Assembly (NCBI GenBank): GCA_947497145.1
Contig: CANMFQ010000013.1
Location: forward strand, 62,001 to 126,000
DNA from: an uncultured Flavobacteriaceae bacterium
Lineage (GTDB): Bacteria; Bacteroidota; Bacteroidia; Flavobacteriales; Flavobacteriaceae
Reading direction: 5' to 3'
Length of the DNA: 64,000 bases
Shown piece after piece: positions 15,301 through 39,087 of the stretch. Each line of letters begins with the position of its first letter. The stretch's first letter is position 1. The translations under genes were made by a program, and so were the position numbers. The notes under the pieces were generated by a model that saw only the letters and a program-made list of their open reading frames with translations, had not been told where the DNA came from and made no database searches.

Positions 15301-15372
15301 ACCTTCCGTTTCTGTTACAGCTTCCAACTGTTGTTTGTTCAAATTTTCTTTTAATCTCTCAATGCCATTCAT
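12313..15372 (-). CDS. UvrD/PcrA-like superfamily 1 DNA helicase with C-terminal repeats
   Basis: A 1019-residue SF1A helicase. The Walker A is AGAGSGKT (30-37); others visible are VDETQDSS (motif II), GDPDQTIYEWRGA (motif III region), IHTSKGLEFPYVFLCG (motif V) and VAITRAQKAFY (motif VI). A PcrA-type small domain (VGDLVNHLIWKQGKVIEV) follows. Beyond this, residues about 785-930 hold four tandem 37-residue repeats with the pattern YPxDYEMQxYVYDK, then a Lys/Glu-rich coiled coil and a short tail. Housekeeping UvrD/PcrA lack this tail, and the gene sits in an island, so a defence or mobile-element role is more likely than repair housekeeping. Confidence 0.92.
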   Translation of the reverse strand: MNGIERLKENLNKQQLEAVTETEGFVRVIAGAGSGKTKALTQRYAYIVEALGINSSNILCVTFTNKAAQEMRKRVKRLVGENSDLSYITTYHGFCVRVLREDINKIKYPKNFIIMDVEDQKTVLRQVYNELGLTSKVFTFKQVLRYISKQKSSQEYLQYILESKKKETDNEIEKVFIRYLEKQQRNFALDFDDLLNFALYIFVNNPDVLEKWQKRLHYIQVDETQDSSQKQFMLIQMLSQFHKNLFVVGDPDQTIYEWRGAKPEILVDFDKQFTDSKTIIMNQNYRSTPNILSLGNHIIKNNKIRVDKDMFTQNPEGVEAVHFHGENDYEEGLWVANEIKRLVNDENCKYSDFAILYRANHISRSIEQSLIRENIPYSVFGGIRFFERKEIKDVLAYLRLIEFEDDFSFLRVVNTPSRGLGKKFIENVAKIAEKESISLYSALQQNITQKDLSRKGAIQFIELIEKYKKSKVDLIISDLVKEIMDESELSAYYRTDGDTDRLDNIKELQNSIILLETQDEEPINLTEYLQEIALYTDMDIEDDRNDRVKLMTIHTSKGLEFPYVFLCGFTEGVLPSAMSIKERRAKALEEERRLTYVAITRAQKAFYMTESEGFNFSTGLNKYPSRFLFEISDNYFVRKGELSQEIINEAKEQLKLDASRQLIQKKFDVGDLVNHLIWKQGKVIEVNEEKGEYQIEFVETGKTKPINFEFRGLTKIEKPTDLTKEEKVEKSKSDDDWNSFVENKIQINKSNKLEIVENKDNSEKEPEENKEINLDKNIQTKIKRFAKKEYPDDKEMGDYVYKNQVEAFLYMSAVTDNELEEFAINQYKNDYCMQQHIYDKNVVAKKYMATVKDSEIEILAKKDYPLDYEMQQYVYDKQLDAKQKMSKFEDIHIRKKAIAEYPNDYEMQVYSYEKLISERKENNDTSKELIDFEQKKKEARKRIADLKEEKAELEKIKVDNSKSELLSEPKKPEKEIAKEQETEGKILSSTMYKSNGGNSAIPKDKEKNNLWSKLKGLWS
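12577..13020 (-). repeat. Coding tandem repeats in helicase tail (four units of 37 codons)
   Basis: Four units begin at residues 785, 822, 859 and 896 of the helicase, each with an aromatic-acidic core: EYPDDKEMGDYVYKN, QYKNDYCMQQHIYDK, DYPLDYEMQQYVYDK and EYPNDYEMQVYSYEK. The spacing is exactly 37 residues. Conservation of Y, P, D, M and Y positions indicates a folded helical repeat rather than low complexity. Confidence 0.8.
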
Positions 15373-15401
15373 TCAGGATGCAGTTTTTTATATATTAAGC
15401 C

Positions 15402-15549
15402 CAACAATTGTACATACGCACTCCAGTACGTATACCCCTTTTTAGAATTACTAATCTAGGTCATTTTTACTGCTTTTAAAAATATTGGTTACTACATGAG
15501 TGTAAATTTTCGTTGTTTAATAAGGATTATGTTCCAAAAGCACTTGAAT
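15402..15549 (-). repeat. Island repeat, copy C (right border)
   Basis: Nearly identical to copy A over 148 bp and then breaks off abruptly after CACTTGAAT. The lost half is the part holding the GGCTCAGTC and GGGTCGTACCGAC anchors. Beyond the break, the sequence leads into the end of the TonB receptor gene. This marks the likely right edge of the island. Confidence 0.85.
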
Positions 15550-25480: not shown

Positions 25481-26134
25481 ATGCTAAATTTTTCTTTATT
25501 TACAGGTATAACTGCTTCTGTATTACACGTAATTTCAGGCCCTGACCATTTAGCGGCAGTTACGCCACTAGCAATTGAGACTAGACGTAAAATATGGAAA
25601 ATAGGCTTGTTTTGGGGTTTTGGTCACCTTACGGGAATGCTTTTAATAGGCATTCTTTTACTCATGTTTAAATCATTTATTCCTTTAGAAGAGATATCCG
25701 AACATAGTGAATTACTAGTTGGTATTGTACTTATAGCAATAGGGCTATGGGCTTTGTTTCGCATTCTTTACAAAACTAAAAGCTACAAACATGAAGCCGA
25801 AATATTGAACCCTACTCATAGCAATGATAAAAAAATGAAGCAGCACCTTTGGTCTTCTTTTGGCATAGGAGTACTACATGGATTAGCAGGAATTGCACAT
25901 TTTATACTATTACTACCCGTTTTAGGGTTTGAAAACCAAATGGATAGCATCTTATACATTGTAGGTTTTGGAATAGGAACAGTTTTTGCAATGACACTAT
26001 ACACTTTTCTATTGGGAAAAATTACAACTTATTCCAAGCGCCAGCCTAGCCAGTCCCTTTACCGAAGCGTTCGCATTTCTGGTGGTTTGTTTGCCATTGG
26101 TATTGGTATTTATTGGCTCTATCTAAGCTTTTAA
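25481..26134 (+). CDS. Nickel/cobalt permease-like protein, NicO/UreH family
   Basis: A 217-residue integral membrane protein with about six helices. The signature SGPDHLAAVTP at about 19-29 follows H16, and the second motif GFGHLTG lies in the next helix; HGLAGIAHF in the second half mirrors the first. These His/Asp motifs mark Ni/Co transporters of the NicO (UreH-like) family. It converges on the end of the hydrogenase operon, and its stop codon overlaps the stop codon of the NHL-repeat gene, so nickel supply for the hydrogenase is a natural reading. Metal specificity is inferred. Confidence 0.82.
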   Translation: MLNFSLFTGITASVLHVISGPDHLAAVTPLAIETRRKIWKIGLFWGFGHLTGMLLIGILLLMFKSFIPLEEISEHSELLVGIVLIAIGLWALFRILYKTKSYKHEAEILNPTHSNDKKMKQHLWSSFGIGVLHGLAGIAHFILLLPVLGFENQMDSILYIVGFGIGTVFAMTLYTFLLGKITTYSKRQPSQSLYRSVRISGGLFAIGIGIYWLYLSF

Positions 26135-27225
26135 AATTTCAATTCAGTAATCACCACACGGTGATTTCCTGTATCGGCAATGATGAGTTTGTTTCCATCG
26201 GTTGTAATAGAAAAAGGCCAGTATAAAGAGCTTGAAGTACCATTCATAGTTTCTTTGTTCTCACTTCCTGTGTTGAAATCACGCTTTCCAATGACTGCAG
26301 TTGCTACTGCATTTTGCTGCTTAGGAATTTCATTAAACCACAATATTCTACTATTTCCAGTATCATTTACCAGCAAGCCGTCTTTATAAAAACACGCATC
26401 ATAGGTCCAGTTTAGTGATTTTGAAGAAGGAAACAATCCAAATTGATTCTGCCCACATGCGTCAAAATTAGCCTGCCCAATAATGATGTCTGCTGGTTTT
26501 GAAAAAGCATCATCCCAAGCATTCCACAAGAGGTTTCTATAAAATTGCGTATCAGCAACTACCATTTGCTTTTTGTCATTGACTTTTACAGAATATGGCC
26601 AAATAGGTTGGTGGTTTTCATAGTCTCGGGTAGTAAAGTCTTCCTTACCAATAACCTTGCTCGCTTCTGCATAATTGGATTTAGGAATAGTATTATAGTA
26701 AAGTATTCTTCGGTTTCCTGTATCGGCAATCCATAGACTCTTTCCATCGGAGAAAACGCCGTATGGCCAATTTAATGTTTTTGCTGAGGGATTATTACCA
26801 ATACCGATAGCATTAGGTTGATTTGAGTTGAAATCAGGTTGACCTATGACCACATCTGCAGGTTGACCGTTTTCAGTGGGCAATGAATGCCAAATTAAAA
26901 CACGATGATTCCACGCATCAGCCACAACCAAAATTTTCCCATCACTCCATATGCCAGAAGGGTATAAAAGGGTATTTGCTGTAACATCACCGCCAGAATT
27001 TCTTCCTGTATCTTCAATGTTTAACTGTCCAAGAACTACATCGGGCTCTTGGAATTCCGAAGTAGGCATACTCTTCCATATAAAAACACGATTTCTCCCT
27101 GTATCAGAAACAAAAAGGTGATTATTTGCCGTAAATATGCCTCTTGGTGCTAATAAAGGCACTTTTCTTGAACCTCTAAAAACATAGGAATTTGTAACGT
27201 GTGGGCCGAGCGTATCAAAATTCAT
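26131..27225 (-). CDS. NHL-type beta-propeller protein, last gene of the hydrogenase operon
   Basis: A 364-residue protein of NHL-type repeats with the recurrent core (V/I)ADTGNxR(I/V): VSDTGRNRVFIW, VADAWNHRVLIW, IADTGNRRILYY, VNDTGNSRILWF, IADTGNHRVVI. Between blades comes VVLGQ, VIGQPDFN, VIGKEDF, IIIGQANFD, VIGKRDFN. This suggests a six-bladed propeller. No signal peptide, so cytoplasmic. The ATG at 27225 follows hypE's stop (27227-27229) with a one-base gap, so translation is coupled; the longer GTG start at 27252 is less likely. NHL genes are known in group 1h/5-type hydrogenase loci; their role there is not established. A scaffold or electron-transfer partner role is inference. Confidence 0.88.
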   Translation of the reverse strand: MNFDTLGPHVTNSYVFRGSRKVPLLAPRGIFTANNHLFVSDTGRNRVFIWKSMPTSEFQEPDVVLGQLNIEDTGRNSGGDVTANTLLYPSGIWSDGKILVVADAWNHRVLIWHSLPTENGQPADVVIGQPDFNSNQPNAIGIGNNPSAKTLNWPYGVFSDGKSLWIADTGNRRILYYNTIPKSNYAEASKVIGKEDFTTRDYENHQPIWPYSVKVNDKKQMVVADTQFYRNLLWNAWDDAFSKPADIIIGQANFDACGQNQFGLFPSSKSLNWTYDACFYKDGLLVNDTGNSRILWFNEIPKQQNAVATAVIGKRDFNTGSENKETMNGTSSSLYWPFSITTDGNKLIIADTGNHRVVITELKF

Positions 27226-27226
27226 A

Positions 27227-28285
27227 TTAACAAATTCTCGGTAATTGTTCACCCGGCAACATGCTAATTACACGTTTACCTCCAATAGCACTCTCCATAA
27301 TTACTTGTTTAGGATGTTCTGCAACAACGCTTCCAATAATACATGCATTTTTACCATTATCATCTTGCTGTAAAGTTGCTAAAACAGCATCAGCCTCCAA
27401 CTGGGAAACAAAGGCTATAAAAAGTCCCTCATTAGCAACATACAAGGGGTCTAAACCTAATAACTCACAAGCACTTGCTACTTGCTCATCTATAGGAAAG
27501 TTTCGTTGCACTAGGTTTATTCCTATTTCTGAAGATTGTGCTATTTCTTTTAAAACAGTTGCAACTCCACCTCGTGTGGGGTCTGTTAGCAAATGTATAC
27601 TGGACCCAAATTTCTCAATTAAACCAATGATAGTATGATTGAGATTGGTGGTATCGCTTTTAATTTCAGAATCAAATTCTAAACCTTCTCTAACAGACAT
27701 AATAGCCATTCCATGAGCAGCAAGGTTTCCACTAATAATAATTTTATCTCCTACGGATATGTTTTTTGTGCTAATATTCGCTTTTTTATGAATAGACCCA
27801 ACTCCTGATGTATTTATGAATATTTTATCGCCTTTTCCTTTTTCCACAACTTTGGTATCTCCTGTAACCACCTGTACTCCTGCTTTTTCACAGGCAAATT
27901 TAATAGCTATTAAAATGTCCCAAAATTCTGTAACGCGAAGCCCCTCTTCAATAATAAAACTAAGCGAAAGGTATTTAGGTGTTGCGCCGCACATTGCTAA
28001 GTCATTCACCGTTCCATTAATGGCTAATTCTCCTATATTTCCCCCAGGAAAAAAGATAGGAGATACTAAAAAACTATCTGTTGAAAAAGCTGTTTTTCCA
28101 TTCAATTCTATAAAAGCACCATCATGACGTTCATCAAGAATAGGATTACTAAGTAGGTCGAAAACACCACTATCTAAAAGTTTATTGGTGAGTACTCCCC
28201 CACTTCCATGACCCAAAGTGATGACATCAAAATCTAGTTTAGGCATAGGGCACTGCAACTGCATATTTATTTTATTTTTTTCCAT
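27227..28285 (-). CDS. hypE: [NiFe]-hydrogenase maturation protein HypE
   Basis: A 352-residue HypE, which dehydrates a carbamoyl group on its C-terminal Cys to make the cyanide ligand of the active site. The C-terminus is PRIC, with Cys352 as the acceptor. The N-terminal GHGSGG motif and the AIR-synthase-like fold (ALNGTVNDLAMCGA-like segment INGTVNDLAMCG) are present. I take ATG 28285; a GTG at 28303 would add six residues. In most loci hypE follows hypD directly; here a RAYT gene and REP palindromes lie between. Confidence 0.95.
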   Translation of the reverse strand: MEKNKINMQLQCPMPKLDFDVITLGHGSGGVLTNKLLDSGVFDLLSNPILDERHDGAFIELNGKTAFSTDSFLVSPIFFPGGNIGELAINGTVNDLAMCGATPKYLSLSFIIEEGLRVTEFWDILIAIKFACEKAGVQVVTGDTKVVEKGKGDKIFINTSGVGSIHKKANISTKNISVGDKIIISGNLAAHGMAIMSVREGLEFDSEIKSDTTNLNHTIIGLIEKFGSSIHLLTDPTRGGVATVLKEIAQSSEIGINLVQRNFPIDEQVASACELLGLDPLYVANEGLFIAFVSQLEADAVLATLQQDDNGKNACIIGSVVAEHPKQVIMESAIGGKRVISMLPGEQLPRIC

Positions 28286-28315
28286 ATTCGTATCAAACTT
28301 CACTGGTTCAACAAA

Positions 28316-28364
28316 ACCTCACAGGTCTTAAAGACCTGTGAGGTATCATAAAGACCTCTGAGGT
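28316..28364. repeat. REP-like palindrome 1 (hypE/RAYT gap)
   Basis: ACCTCACAGGTCTT (28316-28329) and AAGACCTGTGAGGT (28331-28344) form a perfect 14-bp inverted repeat around one central base. A partial third arm AAGACCTCTGAGGT follows at 28351-28364. The same core recurs at four other gaps of this operon. Confidence 0.85.
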
Positions 28365-28378
28365 ATCAAGGTATTCCT

Positions 28379-28939
28379 TTATTCTAATGCTAACTGTTCT
28401 TCCAACTCAAATTTTTTGTTTAAATGCGCATATTCAAAATTAGCGATATCTTCAAATAGACCCAAAATATAATCACGGCTCAATTTTGATGGTAAGGCTG
28501 ATAAATAACTTTGATATGAGGAATGTGGATAACTTCTAAAATCATGAGTAAACCCATGATGTTGCGGGTTTAAGTGTACATAAATCACAAGATTCTTTAC
28601 ATACGCCTCATTTTCTATTTTCTTTCTTTTAAATCTATCTCTAAAAAGACTTCCAGAGCGGCCATAGGCTTTATTTATTGCTTTAGCGTAGGTATTAAAA
28701 AAATTAGATAGCTTTTGCGAAATCATTTTATGCTCCAAATTATCATGGAATTTCAGTATCAAATGAAAATGATTTTTCATTAAACAATACGCATATATCT
28801 CTGAAATAGGGCTAATATACTTACCCAATAATCTTAGAAAATATGTGTAATTACGGTTTTCTAAAAAGATATCCTCACTGTTATTTCCTTGGTTATAGAT
28901 ATGATAATAAGTATCAGATACTATTGGTTCGTATTTCAT
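28379..28939 (-). CDS. REP-associated tyrosine transposase (RAYT), Y1_Tnp domain
   Basis: A 186-residue single-strand transposase of the IS200/IS605-like Y1 family. The HUH motif lies in LMKNHFHLIL (H57, H59), and the catalytic tyrosine is probably Y120 in NLVIYVHLNPQHHGF. RAYTs recognise and mobilise REP palindromes; those with the CCTCACAGGTC core flank this gene on both sides. It interrupts the hyp cluster between hypD and hypE, in the same orientation. It appears intact. The link between this RAYT and these REPs is inferred from proximity. Confidence 0.9.
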   Translation of the reverse strand: MKYEPIVSDTYYHIYNQGNNSEDIFLENRNYTYFLRLLGKYISPISEIYAYCLMKNHFHLILKFHDNLEHKMISQKLSNFFNTYAKAINKAYGRSGSLFRDRFKRKKIENEAYVKNLVIYVHLNPQHHGFTHDFRSYPHSSYQSYLSALPSKLSRDYILGLFEDIANFEYAHLNKKFELEEQLALE

Positions 28940-28967
28940 TTATATACTTATTATTTTAATCTCCATA

Positions 28968-29004
28968 GACCTTTAACACCCCACAGATTTTATAGACCTG
29001 TGGA
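28968..29004. repeat. REP-like palindrome 2 (RAYT/hypD gap)
   Basis: AGACCTTTAACACC and CCACAG-ATTTTAT-AGACCTGTGG give an imperfect version of the REP core (GACCTGTGG). It is more degenerate than the copy on the other side of the RAYT gene. Confidence 0.65.
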
Positions 29005-29044
29005 ATCTTCATATTAATCTCTAGAACTAATGAGTCTTTTAGCA

Positions 29045-30139
29045 TTAGGCTTCTACTAATCCAGAAAAGTGGTAGTATGCTGCACATGCTCCCTCACTAC
29101 TCACCATAGGAGCTCCTAACGGATTTGTTGGTTTACATTTTTTGCCAAATTGAGAACATTCAAAAGGCTTCTTAATTCCCTTCATAATCTGACCTGAAAT
29201 ACAATTAGGATTCTCGGGTGCTTCTTCAATAGTAACATGGTACTTTTTAGCGGCATCAAATGCTGCATACTTCGCTCTAACGGCATAACCACTTTCAGGA
29301 ATTTCACCAATGCCCCGCCACATTTGATTTTTTATTTCAAAAACCTCATTAATAACTTTTTGCGCTTCAGGATTACCATCTTCACGAACAATACGAGCAT
29401 ATTGATTTTCAACTTTAGACTTTCTTTGCTCTAATTGACGAACAACCATTAAAATTCCTTGTAAAACATCTAAAGGTTCAAAACCAGTAACTACAATAGG
29501 CACTTTGTATTTTGCAGATAATGGATGATATTCTGAATTACCCATGATTGTACAGACGTGACCCGCTGCTAAAAACCCATCTATCTTACTTTCTTCATCA
29601 TCAATAACCGCTTTTATTGCAGGTGGCACCAGTACATGTGACGCTAAAATGGCATAATTTTTTACTTTTCTGCGATGTGCATGAACAACAGACAAGGCAT
29701 TAGCAGGAGCAGTAGTTTCAAAACCAACTGCAAAAAAAACAACTTCCTTATCTGGGTTTTCTTCTGCAATTTTAACTGCTTCTAACGGAGAATATAAAAT
29801 ACGAATATCAGCACCTTCAGCTTTTACTTCTAACAGGTTTTTTTTAGAGCCTGGCACCCGTAACATATCACCAAAAGAACATAAAATAACCCCTTTTTTG
29901 GAAGCTAAATAAATAGCTTTATCAATTAAATTTAACGGAGTTACACAAACGGGGCATCCAGGACCATGTATCATGGTAACCTCCTTTGGAAGCATATCTA
30001 TAATACCATTTTTAACCAAGCTATGTGTTTGCCCTCCGCAAACTTCCATAATAGACCAAGGTTGTGACACTGTACTTTTTATTTCGTCTAAATATTTTTT
30101 GGCTAACGCTGGGTCGCGATATTCTGACATATACTTCAT
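29045..30139 (-). CDS. hypD: [NiFe]-hydrogenase maturation protein HypD
   Basis: A 364-residue iron-sulfur scaffold on which, with HypC, the Fe(CN)2CO unit is assembled. Signature segments are [29 protein letters not shown], and the C-terminal Cys-rich end ([12 protein letters not shown] then CSQFGKKC). The gene starts at ATG 30139, though an ATG at 30130 (MSEYRDP) is also possible. It lies 9 bp downstream of hypC. All typical Cys motifs are retained. Confidence 0.95.
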
Positions 30140-30148
30140 AATGCCTTA

Positions 30149-30424
30149 TTATTTTGTTTTTGGCAAATATTCATCTACATCCTCCAAATCTCCCAATTCA
30201 CCTATTTCTGCTAGATATTTGAATGTTTTTTGCGCTTCTTCTTCATTTACTTTACTAATTGCAACACCTACATGTACTAAAACATAATCACCAACATCGG
30301 CATCTGGTAACATTTCTAAACTTGCCTCTTTTGTAATACCACCAAAAAGTACTTTGGCCATACGTACTCTACCATCATATTGAAGTTCAATACGCTTAAT
30401 TTTTCCCGGAATTGCTAAACACAT
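30149..30424 (-). CDS. hypC: [NiFe]-hydrogenase maturation chaperone HypC
   Basis: A 91-residue protein starting MCLAIPGKIKRIE, the HypC/HybG signature. Cys2 (exposed after removal of Met1) contacts the iron carried by HypD and guides it to the large-subunit precursor. The C-terminal helix (EEEAQKTFKYLAEIGEL) is typical. It lies 3 bp after hypF and 9 bp before hypD, consistent with translational coupling. Confidence 0.96.
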   Translation of the reverse strand: MCLAIPGKIKRIELQYDGRVRMAKVLFGGITKEASLEMLPDADVGDYVLVHVGVAISKVNEEEAQKTFKYLAEIGELGDLEDVDEYLPKTK

Positions 30425-30427
30425 AAT

Positions 30428-32689
30428 TTAATTTTTAATATGTTGATGATACCATAATTGACCTAACGATATGTTCTCATCGTTACTTGACAATATACGA
30501 TTAAATTTTAATTCAACACCCCTTGATTCAGCGGTTTGAAGTAGTTTTTTTACCAAAATCGCATTCTGAAAAACCCCTCCGCTGCAAGCAATACAATGAT
30601 ATTGATGCTGCTGCGCTATTTTAATAATTAGTAGTGCAAGTGTATGAATTAAGCTATCTGCTATTTGTGCTGCTGCCATACCTTTATCAATGGCTTTGCA
30701 AATGTTTTGTATGATAGTTTTTGTTGGGATTTTGGTATACGTAATTCCCTGTAGAAAATCAATAAATTCTGTACTATGGTATTCCATAGCCTTATTTTCT
30801 AAAAGCATAGCGGCTTCCCCTTCATAGGTAGTAGTATCTATATGAAGCAATAGGGATGCTACAGCATCAAACACCCGTCCTACCGAGCTTGTTTTTAGCC
30901 TATTGCCTGCTAGCATCTTAGTGTATACCTGCCATTCGGTATCAGAAAATCTATCCTTTATCCGATGCCTCTCTCCTTCGGGAAGCATACTAAGTAACGA
31001 CAAACGTGGCTCTTTTGCCATTTTATCTGCCGCAATCCAATCCACATATTCAAAATGGGTCAATCGTTCTATATGGTTATTTTGATAAGAAAAAAACTCA
31101 CCACCCCAAATTGCATTATCCTCTCCAAGACCCGTTCCATCCCATACCACACCAAGAATTTTCTCTTCGGACTCAAACAGGTTGTGCTCCCCTAAAACAC
31201 TGGCAAAATGTGCTTTATGATGTTGTATTCGCACCAATTCTGCACTCCATTGAGATGCCAATTCTCTACCTGTAATACTACTCTGATATTGCGGATGAAA
31301 ATCAATTAGAACAAGCTCTGGCTCGGTATTAAAAAGCAAGATGTATTTTGATATTTGCTCTTGGTAACGCTCCAAAACCTCATAACTGTCTAAATTTCCA
31401 AAATAGGGACTCACATATATATTGGCATTGGGGGTAAAAGTAAACGTACTTTTTAAATGAGCTCCCATAGCCAATATCTTCTCGTTATTTAATGCATTAT
31501 TACCCATATAGTTGGGAGCAAGACCACGTGAGCGTCTCAGTATGATTTGATGTTCCCCGATGCAACGAACTACCGAATCATCTTGTGGAAAAGAAATTAT
31601 CAAATTATGATGTAAAAAATAATCTGCTACTTCTGATAGCTTTGCTATTGCCTCATCTTTCTCAGAAATTATGGGAGAACCATGAATATTTCCACTAGTG
31701 GCAATAATTGGTATTTTTACTTCATCCATCAAAAGTGTTAGCAATGGTGATGCGGGTAACATTACCCCTAATTGGTTTAACCCAGGAGCTATACTTTCAC
31801 ATTCTAAATCCGTACTACGTGCATCCAGATGTAGAAGAACAATTGGTGCTACAGAAGAAGTAAGTGCTTGTTCTTCTTCCTTAGTTATTCTAAAATTTTT
31901 TTTAACTTTTTCAATAGTAGCATAGAGTATTGCAAAAGGTTTTGACGGGCGCTGTTTTTTTTCACGCAGTCGTTCAATTGCTTCTTTATTATTAGCATCG
32001 CAACAAAGCAAATAGCCGTTTGTGTTTTTTATGGCAAGAATACTTCCTGTAGCAAGTAATTGGGCAGCTTTTTTAATACCATTACTTTGGTTTTCCTTAA
32101 ATGCTATACCGTTGGCATCAACTAATTGAAGCCTTATACCACACATATTACAACTGTTGGTTTGTGAATGAAACCGGCGGTCATCTGGATTAATGTATTC
32201 CTCTTCGCATTTTTTACACATGCTAAAACTAGCAACTGTTGTGTGGGCTCTTTCAAAAGGAAACTTTGTGGTAAGTGCATAACGGGGTCCACAATGGGTA
32301 CATGTTGTAAAAGCATAGCCATAGCGTCTATTGCTGATATCTCTTATCTCAGATTTACATGATTCACAAATAGCAAAATCTGGAGTTAAAGGAATATTGA
32401 TTTGATTATTTGTTTTCGAAGGAATTATCTTAAAATCAGTATATGCCCTAAAAGTAACTTCTGAGATAGCATAGTTTTGAATTACCGAAACTTGGGGGGC
32501 TTCCTTTACAATGGTCAATAAAAATTCTTGTGCTTTTTCTTTTGAAGTATTGATGTGAATACAAACGCCGTCTTGATTATTACAAACCGAACCATTAAGT
32601 TGAAACTGTTGTGCTAAATTATATACAAAAGGGCGAAAACCCACCCCTTGTACTTGACCCGATATGATAATCTCAAAGGTTTTAATCAT
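30428..32689 (-). CDS. hypF: [NiFe]-hydrogenase maturation carbamoyltransferase HypF
   Basis: A 753-residue HypF that turns carbamoyl phosphate into the carbamoyl donor for HypE. Domains in order: acylphosphatase (residues 1-90, SGQVQGVGFRPFVYN), two zinc-finger units (C108/C111/C130/C133 and C158/C161/C180/C183), a YrdC-like domain (from about 200), and the Kae1-like domain (VRIQHHKAHFASVLGEH). All expected metal ligands and His residues are present. The gene lies between hypB and hypC, separated from hypB by a REP-like palindrome. Confidence 0.96.
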   Translation of the reverse strand: MIKTFEIIISGQVQGVGFRPFVYNLAQQFQLNGSVCNNQDGVCIHINTSKEKAQEFLLTIVKEAPQVSVIQNYAISEVTFRAYTDFKIIPSKTNNQINIPLTPDFAICESCKSEIRDISNRRYGYAFTTCTHCGPRYALTTKFPFERAHTTVASFSMCKKCEEEYINPDDRRFHSQTNSCNMCGIRLQLVDANGIAFKENQSNGIKKAAQLLATGSILAIKNTNGYLLCCDANNKEAIERLREKKQRPSKPFAILYATIEKVKKNFRITKEEEQALTSSVAPIVLLHLDARSTDLECESIAPGLNQLGVMLPASPLLTLLMDEVKIPIIATSGNIHGSPIISEKDEAIAKLSEVADYFLHHNLIISFPQDDSVVRCIGEHQIILRRSRGLAPNYMGNNALNNEKILAMGAHLKSTFTFTPNANIYVSPYFGNLDSYEVLERYQEQISKYILLFNTEPELVLIDFHPQYQSSITGRELASQWSAELVRIQHHKAHFASVLGEHNLFESEEKILGVVWDGTGLGEDNAIWGGEFFSYQNNHIERLTHFEYVDWIAADKMAKEPRLSLLSMLPEGERHRIKDRFSDTEWQVYTKMLAGNRLKTSSVGRVFDAVASLLLHIDTTTYEGEAAMLLENKAMEYHSTEFIDFLQGITYTKIPTKTIIQNICKAIDKGMAAAQIADSLIHTLALLIIKIAQQHQYHCIACSGGVFQNAILVKKLLQTAESRGVELKFNRILSSNDENISLGQLWYHQHIKN

Positions 32690-32700
32690 AGCTTTTAATA

Positions 32701-32749
32701 GACCCCACAGGTCTCTAAGGCCTGTGAAGTTTATGACCTGTGGAGTTTA
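32701..32749. repeat. REP-like palindrome 3 (hypB/hypF gap)
   Basis: CCCCACAGGTCTC-TAAGGCCTGTGAAG is an imperfect inverted repeat, and an additional arm GACCTGTGGAG follows. It is the same family as the copies at 28316, 28968, 33514 and 36458. Confidence 0.75.
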
Positions 32750-32771
32750 CGAATTAGGAATACAGTGTTTA

Positions 32772-33470
32772 TTAGTGGTTTTTCTTCAATTGAATTTTTT
32801 CTAAAAGCCAATCACACCATGTATCAATACCCTCATCAGAAAGGGCGGAAACCTGAATAACTTCCAACTCATGATTCACTTCACGAGCGTCTTTAGTTAC
32901 TGCTTCCACAGAAAAAGGAACATAGGGCAATAAATCTGCTTTAGAAACCAACATCATATCACTTGTCAAAAACATTTTAGGATATTTTTTTGGTTTGTCA
33001 TCACCTTCGGTTGTTGCCATAAGAGTTACTCTATAATCTTCGCCTAAATCAAAAGATGATGGGCATACGAGGTTTCCTACATTTTCAATAAATAGCAAAT
33101 CAATATTTTCCAAATCAAATTGGTCTAACACTTGATGTATCATTTGCGCTTCTAAATGACAAATACCTCCTGTAACAATTTGCAAAGCTTGAATTCCCGT
33201 TTCCCGAATACGGTCTGCATCACGTTCTGTTTCCAAATCACCCACCATAACAGCCATAGTAATTTTATCCTTCAGTTTTTGCGCCGTTTTCTGCATCAAC
33301 GTTGTTTTACCACTACCCGCAGAAGAGGTGATATTTATGAGAAGTGTACCCGTTTTTGCCATTTCCTTTTTAATAATACCAGCTACAAAATCGTTAGCCT
33401 TAAGTAAATTAATATTGGTATTTTCACATTGCACAGTGCCACGTGCCGCTTTGGTTGATTTTTCTATCAT
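32772..33470 (-). CDS. hypB: [NiFe]-hydrogenase nickel-insertion GTPase HypB
   Basis: A 232-residue G3E GTPase. Walker A GSGKTT is at 52-57, and the metal site C104-H105 lies in GGICHLEAQ. The N-terminal region has no His-rich nickel-storage stretch and no CxxCGC motif, which fits a HypB that relies on transporter and HypA for nickel supply. It acts with HypA, whose gene lies just upstream. The RIRETGIQALQIVTGG and ADLLPYVPF segments are also typical. Confidence 0.96.
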   Translation of the reverse strand: MIEKSTKAARGTVQCENTNINLLKANDFVAGIIKKEMAKTGTLLINITSSAGSGKTTLMQKTAQKLKDKITMAVMVGDLETERDADRIRETGIQALQIVTGGICHLEAQMIHQVLDQFDLENIDLLFIENVGNLVCPSSFDLGEDYRVTLMATTEGDDKPKKYPKMFLTSDMMLVSKADLLPYVPFSVEAVTKDAREVNHELEVIQVSALSDEGIDTWCDWLLEKIQLKKNH

Positions 33471-33513
33471 ATTCTTTTCCTTTTTTTCTGACCGTTCTAA
33501 GACGCCACTTACA

Positions 33514-33560
33514 CTTATTTAGACCTCACAGGTCTCCAAGACCTGTGAGGTCTAAATAAG
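33514..33560. repeat. REP-like palindrome 4: perfect 22-bp hairpin (hypA/hypB gap)
   Basis: The left arm (33514-33535) and the right arm (33539-33560) are exact reverse complements over 22 bp with a 3-nt loop (CCA). The core is AGACCTCACAGGTCT. It is the most perfect member of the REP set and would fold very strongly in the mRNA between hypA and hypB. Confidence 0.9.
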
Positions 33561-33575
33561 TAGGGCTAACATCAA

Positions 33576-33923
33576 TTAATCTTCAAATTCTACTTTATGA
33601 ATTAACATTTCTTCTCCTTGAATTACGTTCTTGCTAGGGCGTTCACATTTTTCACATATAAAACGATATTGCTTAACGTCTGTGATATGGTCACAGACAT
33701 CACATTGTATTTTTAAACTTGTAGATTCTACATGTAATTCTACATGTTGATACCTAGGATAGGTTAAATGATATGCGCTATATGCATTATATAATAACCG
33801 TGGTTCAATATTAGATAGGATACCTACTTTTAAATGAATAGCTTTCATTTTGTTCAATTTTTCAGCTTCAAACTCCTGTTCTAAGGTTCTCATTATACTA
33901 TTTACAATAGAGGTTTCGTGCAT
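33576..33923 (-). CDS. hypA: [NiFe]-hydrogenase nickel chaperone HypA
   Basis: A 115-residue HypA. The N-terminal MHE motif binds nickel through His2, and the zinc site uses C74, C77, C90 and C93 (CDVC and CEKC). It delivers nickel to the large-subunit precursor with HypB. It lies 7 bp downstream of the helical-repeat protein gene. Confidence 0.96.
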   Translation of the reverse strand: MHETSIVNSIMRTLEQEFEAEKLNKMKAIHLKVGILSNIEPRLLYNAYSAYHLTYPRYQHVELHVESTSLKIQCDVCDHITDVKQYRFICEKCERPSKNVIQGEEMLIHKVEFED

Positions 33924-33930
33924 TCTTAAA

Positions 33931-35412
33931 CTATATTAAACTTTTTATTTTTTCTAATTCTTGCAAATGCTTGTCTGCTTGTGCTAACAAATCAGCATCA
34001 GTTACTAAAGTTTTAACCGCCATGGCTTTAGCTTTCATAGCCTCATATTTTTCTACCGCTTCTTCATTAGTGGCATTATGTGTTAGCCAGCCCAATTCTA
34101 ACTGATTCAGAAGCGTTAGAGCACGCTCAAAAGGATAGCTATCTGCAGTTCTTAAAAGAAGTGCTTCTTCAAATAAACCAGCTGCCTTCTCTAAATTATC
34201 ATGAATTTTTGCAGGAGGAAAATGCATCAATGCCGTAGCATAGTTATGACTAGCCATTGCATGCTCATAAGGATACTGCTCTTTTGTATAAAAAGCCAAT
34301 ACCTCTTTAAACGATGAGGCACAAAAAGCTGTCCACATTGGCTTTTCTTCAGAGGATACTGGTATTTCGGAATAAATTAAAGCCAAATTATGATGCACAT
34401 CGGCAAATTTCTGAGGATGCGTATCTCTCTTGAATATTTTTAAAACATCTTGAAAAGCATTGATGGCCGCTTTATAGTATTGCGGATTCCCATTCTTAGA
34501 CCAGGTATATAACAGGATAGCCTTTTTAAAGCCAGCTTCACCTAAAAATTCAGGAATATCTTCTTGTTTAAAGTATAGAATAGCTTTATTAATCAGCGTT
34601 TTTGAAGCCATAAAATCTCCCTTAAAATTCGCTACTTCTGCCGCATCAACCAACAGCATTCCTGCTTGCGTTTTTAAGCCTTTCTCTTCAAAATATGCAA
34701 TAGATTGCAATTGCATTTGATGCACTTCATCTAACTCAGCTTTGCTATATGGCATTTGTAATTGCGCCATTAAAATCCCTGCCATATGAACATTCATTGC
34801 ATTTTTGGCTTCATCTGAAATAGCAATTTCACTGTGCTCTTGTACAAGTTGTTTTGCTTCATCCAACTCACCTGCATCTAAAAGCAAGTTTAATAAGTGC
34901 TTTCCTGTAAATACCTTATTCTCATCATTTTTAGATTTTGCAATGGCATCAACAAAAACTGCCTTCAACGCTTCATTGGTTAATGGGTTTTCAACAACAC
35001 CGTAATAATTTAAAATAGCGTGATTGTGTGGCGACGTATTATAACAGAAATTAACCATACTATCAGACAGCTCATAACCAAAATGTAAATGCGTCGCAAT
35101 TAAGAGATGGTAATATATTGGTGATGATTCTACAACATATTCAAAAGATTTTTGATGGTTTCCTAGTTTGTAAAAGACTAAAGCTAAAAGATAATCGGTT
35201 GAAAAAGGTATAGCAGGAAACACATAGGGTGGTTCTAAATCATACCAATCCAAAGGAATTGTAATGTCATTAGTATCTACAACCAGGGCTTTCACGTCCT
35301 GTATACTACTAGCATCTTGGGTTACGGTTACCAATTCATGCAATCTATCTACAGATGCAATAGCATCTTGAACGGGTTGTTTTTTATCAATTGTTGTTAA
35401 TATCGTAAGCAT
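33931..35412 (-). CDS. TPR-like helical repeat protein in hydrogenase operon
   Basis: A 493-residue soluble protein made of repeated helices. The segments MLVDAAEVANFKGDFMASKTLINKA, KKAILLYTWSKNGNPQYYKAAINAF, KFADVHHNLALIYSEI and HAMASHNYATALMHF fit tetratricopeptide repeats (about six or more) in the C-terminal two thirds. It has no signal peptide. Its start overlaps the end of the small upstream gene (35387-35412). TPR genes are known in group 1h/5-type hydrogenase loci, where their role is unknown; a scaffold or assembly role is inferred. Confidence 0.8.
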   Translation of the reverse strand: MLTILTTIDKKQPVQDAIASVDRLHELVTVTQDASSIQDVKALVVDTNDITIPLDWYDLEPPYVFPAIPFSTDYLLALVFYKLGNHQKSFEYVVESSPIYYHLLIATHLHFGYELSDSMVNFCYNTSPHNHAILNYYGVVENPLTNEALKAVFVDAIAKSKNDENKVFTGKHLLNLLLDAGELDEAKQLVQEHSEIAISDEAKNAMNVHMAGILMAQLQMPYSKAELDEVHQMQLQSIAYFEEKGLKTQAGMLLVDAAEVANFKGDFMASKTLINKAILYFKQEDIPEFLGEAGFKKAILLYTWSKNGNPQYYKAAINAFQDVLKIFKRDTHPQKFADVHHNLALIYSEIPVSSEEKPMWTAFCASSFKEVLAFYTKEQYPYEHAMASHNYATALMHFPPAKIHDNLEKAAGLFEEALLLRTADSYPFERALTLLNQLELGWLTHNATNEEAVEKYEAMKAKAMAVKTLVTDADLLAQADKHLQELEKIKSLI

Positions 35413-35644
35413 CTTTGTCTACTTTTTGTGTCCCTCTAGGGTCTTTTGCTGCTATTTGTTGCATATTTCTTCCATAAATTTCTGCTAGCCGCTCTGTTCT
35501 ATAATCTCCAATAGTTTGTATTAAAACTTGATTGGGGTCTTTGGTGTTTATAAATAGCAGCGAAACTTCCCAACGACCTTTTACCGGGGTAACCTTGTAT
35601 TGCACCTCGGCATCTAATAGCCAGTCGTCCTTTGATTTCGTCAT
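35387..35644 (-). CDS. Small conserved protein in hydrogenase operon (85 aa)
   Basis: An 85-residue hydrophilic protein starting MTKSKDDWLLDAEVQYKVTP. It overlaps the preceding gene by 4 bp and the TPR gene by 26 bp, so it belongs to one coupled translational unit. I do not recognise the family. It has no Cys and no membrane segment, so it is not itself a redox carrier. Role unknown, but the tight packing between protease and TPR genes argues for a hydrogenase-linked function. Confidence 0.75.
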   Translation of the reverse strand: MTKSKDDWLLDAEVQYKVTPVKGRWEVSLLFINTKDPNQVLIQTIGDYRTERLAEIYGRNMQQIAAKDPRGTQKVDKDAYDINNN

Positions 35645-35961
35645 AAAATTTGCACCTTAATTAAATTTGTCTTTTTTATAATTTCATAAGCTAAATCTCT
35701 ATCTGCCATATCCAAATCATTATCGATAAGCATTTCTCTTATGGCTATTGTTTTATCTCCTTTTAAATTACGTGATTTTAGCAAAAATTGAGTGGGTTTG
35801 TACATTTTTACAAACCACTGACTTGAAACGGGTGTGATTAAGATGGTTCCTTGTTCTTTTACATAGGTTACGTAGGCGTAATGAATAGCACCAAAAATAG
35901 ATGTTATCAATTCATTATCTATATAAATATGAGCAGATTTTAGGGTAATTTTAGCACTCAC
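35641..35961 (-). CDS. Small conserved protein in hydrogenase operon (106 aa)
   Basis: A 106-residue protein starting with GTG, inside a GTGA overlap with the stop of the protease gene. It begins MSAKITLKSAHIYIDNELIT and ends LAYEIIKKTNLIKVQIL. I recognise no domain. It lacks Cys, His clusters and membrane segments. The four-base overlaps on both sides point to strict co-expression with the hydrogenase maturation protease and the 85-aa gene. Confidence 0.72.
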   Translation of the reverse strand: MSAKITLKSAHIYIDNELITSIFGAIHYAYVTYVKEQGTILITPVSSQWFVKMYKPTQFLLKSRNLKGDKTIAIREMLIDNDLDMADRDLAYEIIKKTNLIKVQIL

Positions 35962-36440
35962 GTAGGTATGGATAAATTCAAGTCATCTAAAATGTGTTGC
36001 ACTACCTTATCTCCAGCTTCTTTTACCACATTGCTTAAATCTACTTCAAGTTTGGTATTTTCAATAGCAACTAAGTATACCTGAATGTCATCTGGATATT
36101 CATCTTGCAGTATCTTTTTTGTATACGATAATGCTTGGTCCCATTTCATTCCGTGAAGAAATACCAAAGGGTCATCTTGTGGTGCCTTCATTACCTCTTC
36201 TGCGGGAACTTTAAACAAGGTACCTACGGGTTCATTGGTGTTTAAGACTCCATCAACCAAAATAATTTTGTTATGCCCTTTTAATCCAAAAAGCACCTCA
36301 AAAGCAGCTGTACCCATATCAAATATGCTAATATCATCAGATTCAGGAAGTTTTTTCACCAACTGCTCAATCACATAAATACCAATTGCATCATCACTAC
36401 GAACAGGATTTCCAAACCCCATTATTGCCGTCTTCATCAT
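35958..36440 (-). CDS. [NiFe]-hydrogenase maturation endopeptidase (HyaD/HycI family)
   Basis: A 160-residue protease that removes the C-terminal extension of the large subunit after nickel insertion. The N-terminus MGFGNPVRSDDAIGIY has the GxGNxxxxDD motif of the family, with a second acidic segment in IILVDGVLN and the later His in FLHGMKWDQ. It directly follows the large-subunit gene, separated by a REP-like palindrome, which is the expected place for a dedicated protease. Confidence 0.92.
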   Translation of the reverse strand: MMKTAIMGFGNPVRSDDAIGIYVIEQLVKKLPESDDISIFDMGTAAFEVLFGLKGHNKIILVDGVLNTNEPVGTLFKVPAEEVMKAPQDDPLVFLHGMKWDQALSYTKKILQDEYPDDIQVYLVAIENTKLEVDLSNVVKEAGDKVVQHILDDLNLSIPT

Positions 36441-36457
36441 TTGTTTTTTATATACAA

Positions 36458-36494
36458 AAACCTCACAGGACTTAGAGACCTGCGAGGTCTAAGG
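36458..36494. repeat. REP-like palindrome 5 (large subunit/protease gap)
   Basis: AACCTCACAGGAC-TTAG-AGACCTGCGAGGTC is an imperfect member of the same palindrome family as the copies at 28316, 28968, 32701 and 33514. Confidence 0.75.
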
Positions 36495-36513: not shown

Positions 36514-38106
36514 TTAAAGTTTAAATCTTGATAGCTCAACACCGCTTTTTGCATCATGTGCATGCACAGTACATACAAGGCAAGAATCAAAAGAGCGTGC
36601 CACAATACCAACTTCTACAGGGTCAGACGGGTCTTCAATAGTAGTACCCAATAATGCCTCTTCAATAGGCCCAGGGTTATCATCTCCATCTTGCGGCCCC
36701 ACATTCCATGTGGTTGGTGCCATTACTTGGTAGTTTTTTATAACACCATCTTTAATCTCTATCCAATGTGCCAAGGCACCCCGAGCAGCTTCGGTAGAAC
36801 CAAAGCCCTTACCATCTTTCTCTACAGGCTTTATATAAAACTCCCCATCTAAATCTATTTCAGACAACCATTGTTCAATGAATTTGTATAATCTTGGAGC
36901 TTCATGAACTCTAGCCAAAACTCTAGTAAATACACTAGGCCCCAATTTTTTCATAATATCGCCAAATAAAGGGTCTTTAATTTGATGGTCTTTATTATTG
37001 GGATTAGCATTCATAATCACACGTGCTAAAGGACCTGCTTCTGCTGCATGCCCATCATAACGCGGGGCTTTTGCCCAGCTGTACTGACCGTCAAAATCAC
37101 TATCATGTAAAGCCTGAGATTTAGCAGGTGTTGGCAATGGCTCATCCCAAGGGTGTAGCCCATCTTCTTGGTCATTATACCAAGAGTGTTTTACGTGTTC
37201 ACTCACCTTCATGTGGTCAAATTCATGATAGTTTTCACCATCAAAAAATCCGCTAGAACTTATTAACGCATCATTTCTACCTTCAATAGTTGGGTTGTTG
37301 TACCTGTCTTTGTGTAAATAGGTTCCTGTTGCTAAAAATTTACCAACACCTTGACCAAATTTATCCAATCCAAATTCTAGACCAGCACGAATCAATAACC
37401 CCAAATCACTATTTTTCTGTGATTCATTTTCATCAACCCAAGCCAACATATCATCCCAAGTCTTTATTTCCATATACCGCTCAATAGAGCAACCCAACCA
37501 AACGGGTTCTAGCCAATCATTTTTAAACTGTGTCATGATTGCGTGGGCTCTTGTAATATCTTTTAAGGTAGGAGCACACATTACACCCCCTGGCACCATA
37601 TAACTAGAGTGTGGCCATTGACCACCAAATAGTGCATAAACCTGCACAGGTAAACCACTTGCGGTTAATCCTATCTGAAAAGTTTCACCTACATAGGCAG
37701 CCCAACGTTTTACCACTTCCTTATAGAGCGGTTGGTTGGCATATTTTTTATTTGCCAAATCTGTAGCAAAAATAGCATAAAACCATCTGGGAATACTTTG
37801 AATAGTTTCTGTTGCTTGACCAATTGCTCTTAATAAAAGGGCATTGGGTGTTAATTTGGTTCCCCAAGCGGTATCTAATGCTGAAGAGGCACAATATAGG
37901 TGAGACCCTCCACAGATACCACAAATTCTAGGCGTAACAATAAGACCGGATTGTGGGTCTTTACCTTCCATTATTTTTTCAAACCCCCTAAACATTGCTG
38001 CTTGTGTATGCGCACGCGTAACCTTGCCATTATCAATGTAGACTTTAACATCTAAGTCTCCTTCAACACGACCCACAGGGGATATATTTAATTCTGTAAC
38101 TGACAT
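36514..38106 (-). CDS. [NiFe]-hydrogenase large (catalytic) subunit, group 1h/1l-like
   Basis: A 530-residue large subunit. The N-terminal nickel motif is RICGICGGSH, with C62 and C65. The C-terminal motif SFDSCLVCTVH has C509 and C512, and H515 is the expected cleavage position, leaving a 15-residue extension (AHDAKSGVELSRFKL) for the protease. The L2 motif has DSCLVC rather than DPCLAC. With the small subunit's features this matches the group 1h/5 or 1l hydrogenases, some of which oxidise H2 at trace levels in air. I cannot assign the exact HydDB subgroup by eye. Confidence 0.95.
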   Translation of the reverse strand: MSVTELNISPVGRVEGDLDVKVYIDNGKVTRAHTQAAMFRGFEKIMEGKDPQSGLIVTPRICGICGGSHLYCASSALDTAWGTKLTPNALLLRAIGQATETIQSIPRWFYAIFATDLANKKYANQPLYKEVVKRWAAYVGETFQIGLTASGLPVQVYALFGGQWPHSSYMVPGGVMCAPTLKDITRAHAIMTQFKNDWLEPVWLGCSIERYMEIKTWDDMLAWVDENESQKNSDLGLLIRAGLEFGLDKFGQGVGKFLATGTYLHKDRYNNPTIEGRNDALISSSGFFDGENYHEFDHMKVSEHVKHSWYNDQEDGLHPWDEPLPTPAKSQALHDSDFDGQYSWAKAPRYDGHAAEAGPLARVIMNANPNNKDHQIKDPLFGDIMKKLGPSVFTRVLARVHEAPRLYKFIEQWLSEIDLDGEFYIKPVEKDGKGFGSTEAARGALAHWIEIKDGVIKNYQVMAPTTWNVGPQDGDDNPGPIEEALLGTTIEDPSDPVEVGIVARSFDSCLVCTVHAHDAKSGVELSRFKL

Positions 38107-38127: not shown

Positions 38128-39087
38128 TTATTTAGAAGTTTCTGTTATTCTTTTATTCTTGGGCATGACTTTTTGAAAGCCAGCTTCTAAATAATAGGCT
38201 AGTTTACTTCTACCTTCTGGTACTTCTTTTGGAAAAACCCCTAAGTGCTTCATGGTTTTTAAAACACTACCTTTCATAAGGTCATTATGTGGAAAACCAG
38301 GTTCTGTGCATCCTAGGCAAGGATGGTTTGAACGGGTTTTGCTAGACTGCCTATTCCAAAGAATATTATTACAACTTGCTCTCGTCATTGGTCCTCTACA
38401 TCCTACTTCATAGAAAAGACATCCACCTCTACGTCCAAATCCTCCGTCTACTTTTTGAGCAAAGTTTGTTACGTTTGTACAGCCGTCTTGAACGAAGTCT
38501 GTAAAGAATGTTTTTGGTCTGTGATAATCATCTATAAGTACATCACCAATTCTTCCCACAGCAATAGCCACAAGAATCTGTGTAATCCAATCTGGATGTG
38601 CAGGGCAACCGGGAATATTAATTACTGGTAAACCGCCTTTTGATACATAGTTTGCACCAAGGAAACCACCTTTGTTCTTTTTAAGGAATTGCATTCCTGT
38701 AGATTCACTTGGATTGGGAGCAACAGCTGGGATACCTCCCCATGTTGCACAATCTCCAATTGCAACCACATATCCTGCCACTTCAGAAAGTTCTTTAATC
38801 CAATCCTTCATGGGGCGGTCTGCAAATAAATTCATGGTACCTGTATTGTCTGGCCCTTGAATAATGGAACCTTCAAACACAAGAATATCCATCTGCACTT
38901 TTCCTGCAAGAATATCTTTTAAAAGGTCTTGAACTTGGTCTCCTATCTGTAAACCGGTGGTTGGATGCCATAAAATATTGAGTCCAAAATCGGTAATAAG
39001 TTCTACTACCGATGGTTCTTCGGCATTTAAAAAAGACATGGTGTTGCCACTACAAGCACCTCCCTGTAACCATAATACGTTTGCCAT
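38128..39087 (-). CDS. [NiFe]-hydrogenase small subunit, group 1h/1l-like, no Tat signal
   Basis: A 319-residue iron-sulfur subunit that starts directly at MANVLWLQGGACSGNTMSFL, with no twin-arginine leader. Cys12 is in place, but residue 15, normally the second Cys of CTGC, is Asn. Other proximal ligands are C113 (GDCATWGG) and C161 (NIPGCPAHPDW). H189 and C203, C223, C230 and then C239, C257, C260 supply the distal and medial clusters. The CSGN motif is, from memory, the norm in actinobacterial-type (group 1h) enzymes. The lack of a C-terminal membrane helix suggests a soluble or peripherally attached complex. Confidence 0.94.
   Translation of the reverse strand: MANVLWLQGGACSGNTMSFLNAEEPSVVELITDFGLNILWHPTTGLQIGDQVQDLLKDILAGKVQMDILVFEGSIIQGPDNTGTMNLFADRPMKDWIKELSEVAGYVVAIGDCATWGGIPAVAPNPSESTGMQFLKKNKGGFLGANYVSKGGLPVINIPGCPAHPDWITQILVAIAVGRIGDVLIDDYHRPKTFFTDFVQDGCTNVTNFAQKVDGGFGRRGGCLFYEVGCRGPMTRASCNNILWNRQSSKTRSNHPCLGCTEPGFPHNDLMKGSVLKTMKHLGVFPKEVPEGRSKLAYYLEAGFQKVMPKNKRITETSK

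Follow-up and report, generated by a model that had tools for sequence, protein, structure and literature searches.

Introduction

REPtrons of the TnpA-REP type, known from E. coli and Pseudomonas, combine a single HUH/Y1 transposase, the REP-associated tyrosine transposase (RAYT), with repetitive extragenic palindromes (REPs) that adjoin its gene and number tens to hundreds of copies (PMC2817692, PMC6006769). RAYT/REP systems have been described as vertically inherited and dispersed over the genome, with their benefit to the host still in question. Here, we describe a RAYT and its palindromes within a Huc-like [NiFe]-hydrogenase operon of an uncultured Flavobacteriaceae bacterium (GCA_947497145.1, contig CANMFQ010000013.1, positions 62,001–126,000 of the forward strand; this whole stretch of 64,000 nt is referred to below as the window). 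The system consists of three to five palindrome copies in one operon, has apparently been carried horizontally and long kept, and has one REP at the position of a conserved, predicted RNA hairpin. The role of a REP in its host can thereby be tested at a single site.

The locus resembles REPtrons in having a single HUH/Y1 RAYT with the fold of 4er8, and adjoining palindromes that lie in intergenic gaps and covary in sequence with the RAYT. It departs from them in copy number and in its confinement to one operon, and its palindromes are near-perfect and lack a GTAG/CGTC tag. Fold, motifs, single gene copy and adjacent palindromes are thus those of a RAYT, whereas two features of REPs, the tag and the dispersion, are missing. 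Many copies dispersed over the genome are seen in other RAYT-carrying genomes, but neither in the window genome nor in three further genomes (G014, G024 and G486). Unlike the RAYTs described as vertically inherited (PMC8049555), the window system appears to have been carried between genera with its operon.

Local build-up of REPs, concentrated near rayt and not genome-wide, has been reported in three marine gammaproteobacteria and in Thauera, for which horizontal transfer was invoked (PMC2817692). Those regions reach up to 200 kb, whereas the present one covers about 8 kb of a single operon, at sites common to several genera. The system is also similar to subclass 2.6 of TnpA-Y1 (RAYT group 5), which is found in Bacteroidetes, is about 180 amino acids long and has atypical, non-tagged flanking structures (PMC6006769); the window RAYT carries NHFH and YVHLNP in place of the NH[LIV]H and YIH[QN]NP of that subclass, and is at most a candidate member. 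As regards function, intercistronic 3′ hairpins are established stabilizers of upstream operon segments in malE-malF of E. coli (PMC5927463). Like the malE-malF REP, the palindrome between the hydrogenase large subunit and maturation protease genes would form an RNA structure in a gap of the operon, 3′ of a gene the product of which is required in excess; unlike it, this palindrome stands in place of a non-homologous, covarying native hairpin of related operons. The literature that we searched held no report of a REP system carried horizontally within an operon, or of a REP replacing a conserved operon hairpin.

A RAYT and its palindromes within one operon

Palindromes of the CCTCACAGGTC family occupy five gaps of the operon, three as good copies and two as degenerate ones; none has an assigned strand. 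The RAYT/hypE gap contains a perfect copy (ACCTCACAGGTCTTAAAGACCTGTGAGGT, 28316–28344) adjoined by a half-size relative (28353–28363), the hypA/hypB copy (33513–33561) has 23 nt arms that are 100 % complementary, and the large subunit/protease copy (36460–36490) lies where related operons have their conserved intercistronic hairpin. Degenerate copies are found in the hypD/RAYT gap (about 28979–29009) and in the hypB/hypF gap (32700–32748), the latter comprising a palindrome at about 32700–32731 and a second half at about 32735–32748.

Allowing up to one mismatch, the 11-mer core has eight matches in the window, all of them within the operon (28.3 to 36.5 kb), against 0.26 expected in shuffled sequence; none of 100 shuffles reached eight, and chance palindromes were rejected on these figures. 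Across the whole assembly (5.1 Mb in 198 contigs, 99.97 % complete), two patterns searched at up to three mismatches matched nothing but the four better copies of the operon. A looser pattern with up to two mismatches gave three matches, again all within the operon, and its reversed control gave one. Searches with three patterns thus rejected the presence of dispersed or degenerate copies in the rest of the window genome. The original prediction, made from the letters of the window, had placed palindromes in these five gaps and nowhere else in the 64 kb, around an intact RAYT gene splitting hypD from hypE, and had proposed a genome-wide count as a check. Each of these points was borne out, and the absence outside the operon extends to the entire genome.

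The RAYT gene (28379–28939, minus strand) is an intact open reading frame of 186 codons for amino acids, co-directional with the operon, and is the only RAYT gene of the genome; a second was sought and not found. Its product contains the HUH motif H57-F-H59 and the catalytic Y120 in YVHLNP. Residues H57, H59, Y120 and N124 are invariant in 21 relatives and P125 is nearly so, which corresponds to the HUH histidines and Y---NP signature of class 2 (PMC6006769). The protein falls just under the 23-bit cut-off of Pfam Y1_Tnp (E 1.2e-4, 22.6 bits) and under the 80-bit cut-off of NCBIfam REP_Tyr_transpos (E 2e-13, 50 bits), and is a divergent member, a curated cut-off being no biological feature. 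An AlphaFold model (pLDDT 93) has the Y1 HUH fold, and its top Foldseek match in the PDB is 4er8, the E. coli RAYT in complex with a REP hairpin (E 1.4e-6, TM scores 0.62 and 0.69), which ranks before the IS200, IS608 and ISDra2 transposases.

The RAYT and the palindromes are cognate, because related RAYTs of the family (about 50–73 % identical) are mostly flanked, on one or both sides, by the AGACCTCACAGGTYTNNNARACCTGTGAGGTCT palindrome, including at non-hydrogenase loci of other genomes. The palindrome also varies together with the RAYT, reading CAGG in the window and CGGG beside the RAYT in the clade of G014, G024 and G486. Among 396 family genomes, scored for RAYT at E up to 1e-20 and for the palindrome at up to two mismatches, 39 had both, 18 the RAYT only, 38 the palindrome only and 301 neither (odds ratio 17, with a p value of about 4e-19 that is nominal since the genomes are related). 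Together with the fold match, the flanking and the co-occurrence support the predicted RAYT with cognate REP-like palindromes. The prediction had further held that absence of the palindrome elsewhere would speak against this link; the palindrome is indeed absent elsewhere in its own genome, but the link stands, as the pairing is seen in relatives. An unpaired tetranucleotide of the GTAG/CGTC type was absent from the hairpin foot, the flank profiles of 43 copies holding only the palindrome's own AGA/TCT.

The eight nearest RAYT genomes with the gene outside the operon have 5–19 palindrome copies each, and the listed places of those in G049, G219 and G278 are spread across several contigs or megabases. 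On contig C39 of genome G128 (locus L105), all listed palindromes, mostly of the CCTAACAGGTCT type, are found no further than 1 kb from the RAYT gene.

The same arrangement in other genera

The RAYTs nearest to that of the window, at 72–73 % identity, belong to G014 and G486, which share a genus, and to G024 of another genus; other sampled RAYTs are 60 % or less identical to these operon RAYTs. In all three genomes the RAYT gene again separates hypD from hypE in this hydrogenase operon, and palindromes occupy three gaps, namely large subunit/protease, hypB/hypF and RAYT/hypE. A palindrome in the hypA/hypB gap is found only in the window genome among the four RAYT operons. The G014, G486 and G024 genomes (G486 being assembled as a single contig of 5.5 Mb) contain no further palindromes of the family, G014 having one unrelated chance match. 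The family is absent from 78 named hydrogenase loci, except for one hairpin with three mismatches in L021, and RAYT is absent from those of the 78 that were mapped with tblastn.

Trees built with FastTree disagree on how these genomes are related. In a tree of 12 operon proteins the distance between G014 and G024, of different genera, is smaller (0.074) than that between G014 and G486 of the same genus (0.106), whereas the corresponding Rho distances are about 0.40 and about 0.06. This discordance indicates that the operon, together with its RAYT and REPs, has probably moved between genera. In the window's own genus, 1 of 14 genomes has this hydrogenase, namely the window genome itself; a hydrogenase that is only distantly related (41 % identity over part of the protein) is found in one congener.

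The RAYT has a dN/dS ratio (non-synonymous to synonymous substitution rates) of about 0.08 among G014, G486 and G024, and has, therefore, been maintained in working order. Between the window and G014, synonymous sites have reached saturation. Because the RAYT has diverged between the window and this clade (dN 0.18) as much as the fast operon genes have, a recent transfer of the RAYT from the clade into the window operon is unlikely.

A separate instance of close similarity was observed among the hydrogenase loci. The operons of Maribacter sp. PR1 and of Muricauda/Allomuricauda records (L011 8823–21590, L012–L015) are 99.95–99.98 % identical over about 12.7 kb, and over 15 kb there is 97 % identity to that of [Muricauda] okinawensis. 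Rho nevertheless sets the PR1 and okinawensis genomes apart, which indicates recent transfer or else a binning error in metagenome-assembled genomes.

A conserved hairpin position between the large subunit and protease genes

The gap between the large subunit and protease genes contains a hairpin in nearly all of 50 operons compared. Its folding z score is below −3 in 86 % of them (median −4.1), which is not true of most other gaps. In the nearest REP-free relatives this gap measures 76–80 nt and always contains a AAACTTTCYYRAG...AGAAAGTTTTTT-type hairpin; the nearest RAYT-free relatives have no extra gene between hypD and hypE and a hypB/hypF spacing of about 4 nt. Across 20 operons, 95 % of the cells of the native hairpin pair and 9 of its 15 pairs have changed on both sides. 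None of 500 shuffles reached any measure of this covariation, and sliding the partner by one column lowered every measure.

The native hairpin is missing from the four RAYT operons, where the REP palindrome takes its place in a gap of 73–79 nt and retains a hairpin although its sequence differs among them. Other, non-homologous hairpins occupy the same position in L021, L022, L040 and L043. As native, REP and non-homologous hairpins share one position, the conserved feature is a hairpin at this boundary and not a particular sequence. The original prediction had noted that REPs in operons can tune mRNA stability and expression from gene to gene; of the five copies, it is the large subunit/protease REP for which the comparison supports a function. 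The other four REP gaps have no comparable native hairpin, and with no counterpart to replace, their REPs may be neutral. An intercistronic hairpin is thereby flagged as common to Bacteroidota operons for uptake hydrogenases linked to trace-hydrogen oxidation; we found no description of it in the literature searched, and a search on hydrogenase intergenic hairpins returned no paper.

The fillers of L022, L040, L043 and L021 (GAGACCTGTTGGGC...GCCCAGCAGGTCTC; GCCCCATAGGTT...AACCTGTGGGGC) might be further repeat captures. When copies of the gap sequence were sought elsewhere within every locus, the expected repeats came up in the RAYT operons, and scattered matches were seen in L028, L046, L051, L058, L066, L071 and L077.

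Proposed model and alternative explanations

We favour, with moderate confidence, a horizontally carried REPtron that is resident in the operon and one repeat of which has taken the place of the intercistronic hairpin conserved at the boundary of the structural and maturation genes. One RAYT gene with its cognate palindromes would live in a horizontally moving Huc-like hydrogenase operon without having spread beyond it. The RAYT would have inserted between hypD and hypE and, presumably by moving palindromes, seeded copies into a few nearby intercistronic gaps, after which the operon would have carried both between flavobacterial genera. At the large subunit/protease boundary the palindrome sits at the place of the operon family's terminator-like hairpin and most likely takes over its task in the mRNA, where it would attenuate readthrough, shield the 3′ end of the transcript of the structural genes, or both. 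The small and large subunits would as a result be made in larger amounts than the maturation factors. We infer that the REP stands in for the native element, with its function in expression preserved, from the nature of the boundary, at which structural subunits required in large amounts give way to maturation factors, and from the analogy with malE-malF. The comparison suggests that selfish repeats have been reused as operon control elements.

Several observations weigh against this model. The large subunit/protease REP of G014 and G024 contains an A-C mismatch when read as sense RNA; a consensus terminator scan picked the copy at 28316 and missed that at 36460, and terminator-like sites were about as numerous as expected by chance; and the native hairpin has been replaced by the large subunit/protease REP only. 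Rho was the sole species marker. Furthermore, most operon genes group the window operon with the REP-free L010, or with L010 plus L011 (support being weak in hypB, 0.28, and moderate in the 106-amino-acid gene o106, 0.88), so the presence of RAYT and REPs departs from the coding tree. Two losses, an old short-tract recombination or parallel capture could each account for this conflict. The window's large subunit/protease flanks match those of G014 and G024 (z 4.5–5.4) and not those of L010 and L011, and no recombination tracts were visible around the L010 gaps in 200 nt windows.

The alternative that best survives, although we consider it unlikely, is an ordinary young or weak REPtron, whose new REPs arise mostly near the RAYT, with the operon gaps serving as nearby non-coding sites; no REP would be functional and the match at the large subunit/protease boundary would be a coincidence. 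REP build-up near rayt after horizontal transfer is known (PMC2817692), G128 is another family genome with all listed copies around its RAYT, and REPs here also occur in gaps without a native hairpin. The RAYT is, however, old in its operon setting, as the saturated synonymous sites and the low dN/dS ratio attest, and the copies lie inside one operon and not on both sides of the RAYT, three of the gaps being common to four genomes. Nor would coincidence lead one to expect that the boundary REP retains its hairpin despite sequence differences, or that the native hairpin is lacking in precisely those operons that have the REP.

Two further readings seem improbable. The window lineage and that of G014, G024 and G486 could have captured RAYT and REPs independently, with few gaps tolerating insertion; the coding tree does part the two lineages, with the REP-free L010 and L011 in between, and the flanks of the hypB/hypF and hypD/RAYT copies are barely alike. 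Against such parallel capture, the operon RAYTs resemble one another more than they do any other RAYT sampled, the same three sites are occupied in both lineages and the large subunit/protease flanks are homologous. At similarly long odds, the RAYT could have been domesticated to regulate the hydrogenase operon specifically, binding the palindromes in DNA or mRNA and setting the ratio of structural to maturation output, which would explain the purifying selection on the RAYT, its travel with the operon and the failure of the REPs ever to disperse. Finally, the idea that the palindromes are operators or RNA hairpins of the operon unrelated to a bystander RAYT draws on the clustering of all copies in one operon, and is disfavoured to the point of being very improbable by the same palindrome flanking RAYTs at non-hydrogenase loci and by RAYT-free hydrogenase operons that lack it.

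Organization of the hydrogenase operon

All genes of the operon lie on the minus strand. The small subunit gene (38128–39087) precedes that of the Huc-like large subunit (36514–38106), the product of which matches 7uus and 7utd, which we take to be Huc entries, at an E value of about 1e-205, the next best match being at 5e-64. The maturation protease gene (35958–36440) is followed by three conserved genes (33931–35961) for products of 106, 85 and 493 amino acids, which are kept in most of the compared Bacteroidota operons and have no Pfam match. Then come hypA (33576–33923), hypB (32772–33470), hypF (30428–32689), hypC (30149–30424), hypD (29045–30139) and, beyond the RAYT gene, hypE (27227–28303); an NHL-repeat protein gene (26131–27252) is the final gene of the conserved cluster.

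Additional genes are present at two junctions in other operons. At the hypD/hypE junction, the site of the RAYT in the window, another Bacteroidota operon (L023, 19752–21491) has a gene for a 579-amino-acid protein that looks HypX-like by eye (formyltransferase plus enoyl-CoA hydratase-like), and gap sizes suggest a hypX-like gene there in L029 and L035 too. Between hypA and hypB, L017 has a gene for a 288-amino-acid membrane protein (14598–15464), and gaps of similar size are found at this junction in L023, L026, L028, L029, L035, L036, L042 and L083.

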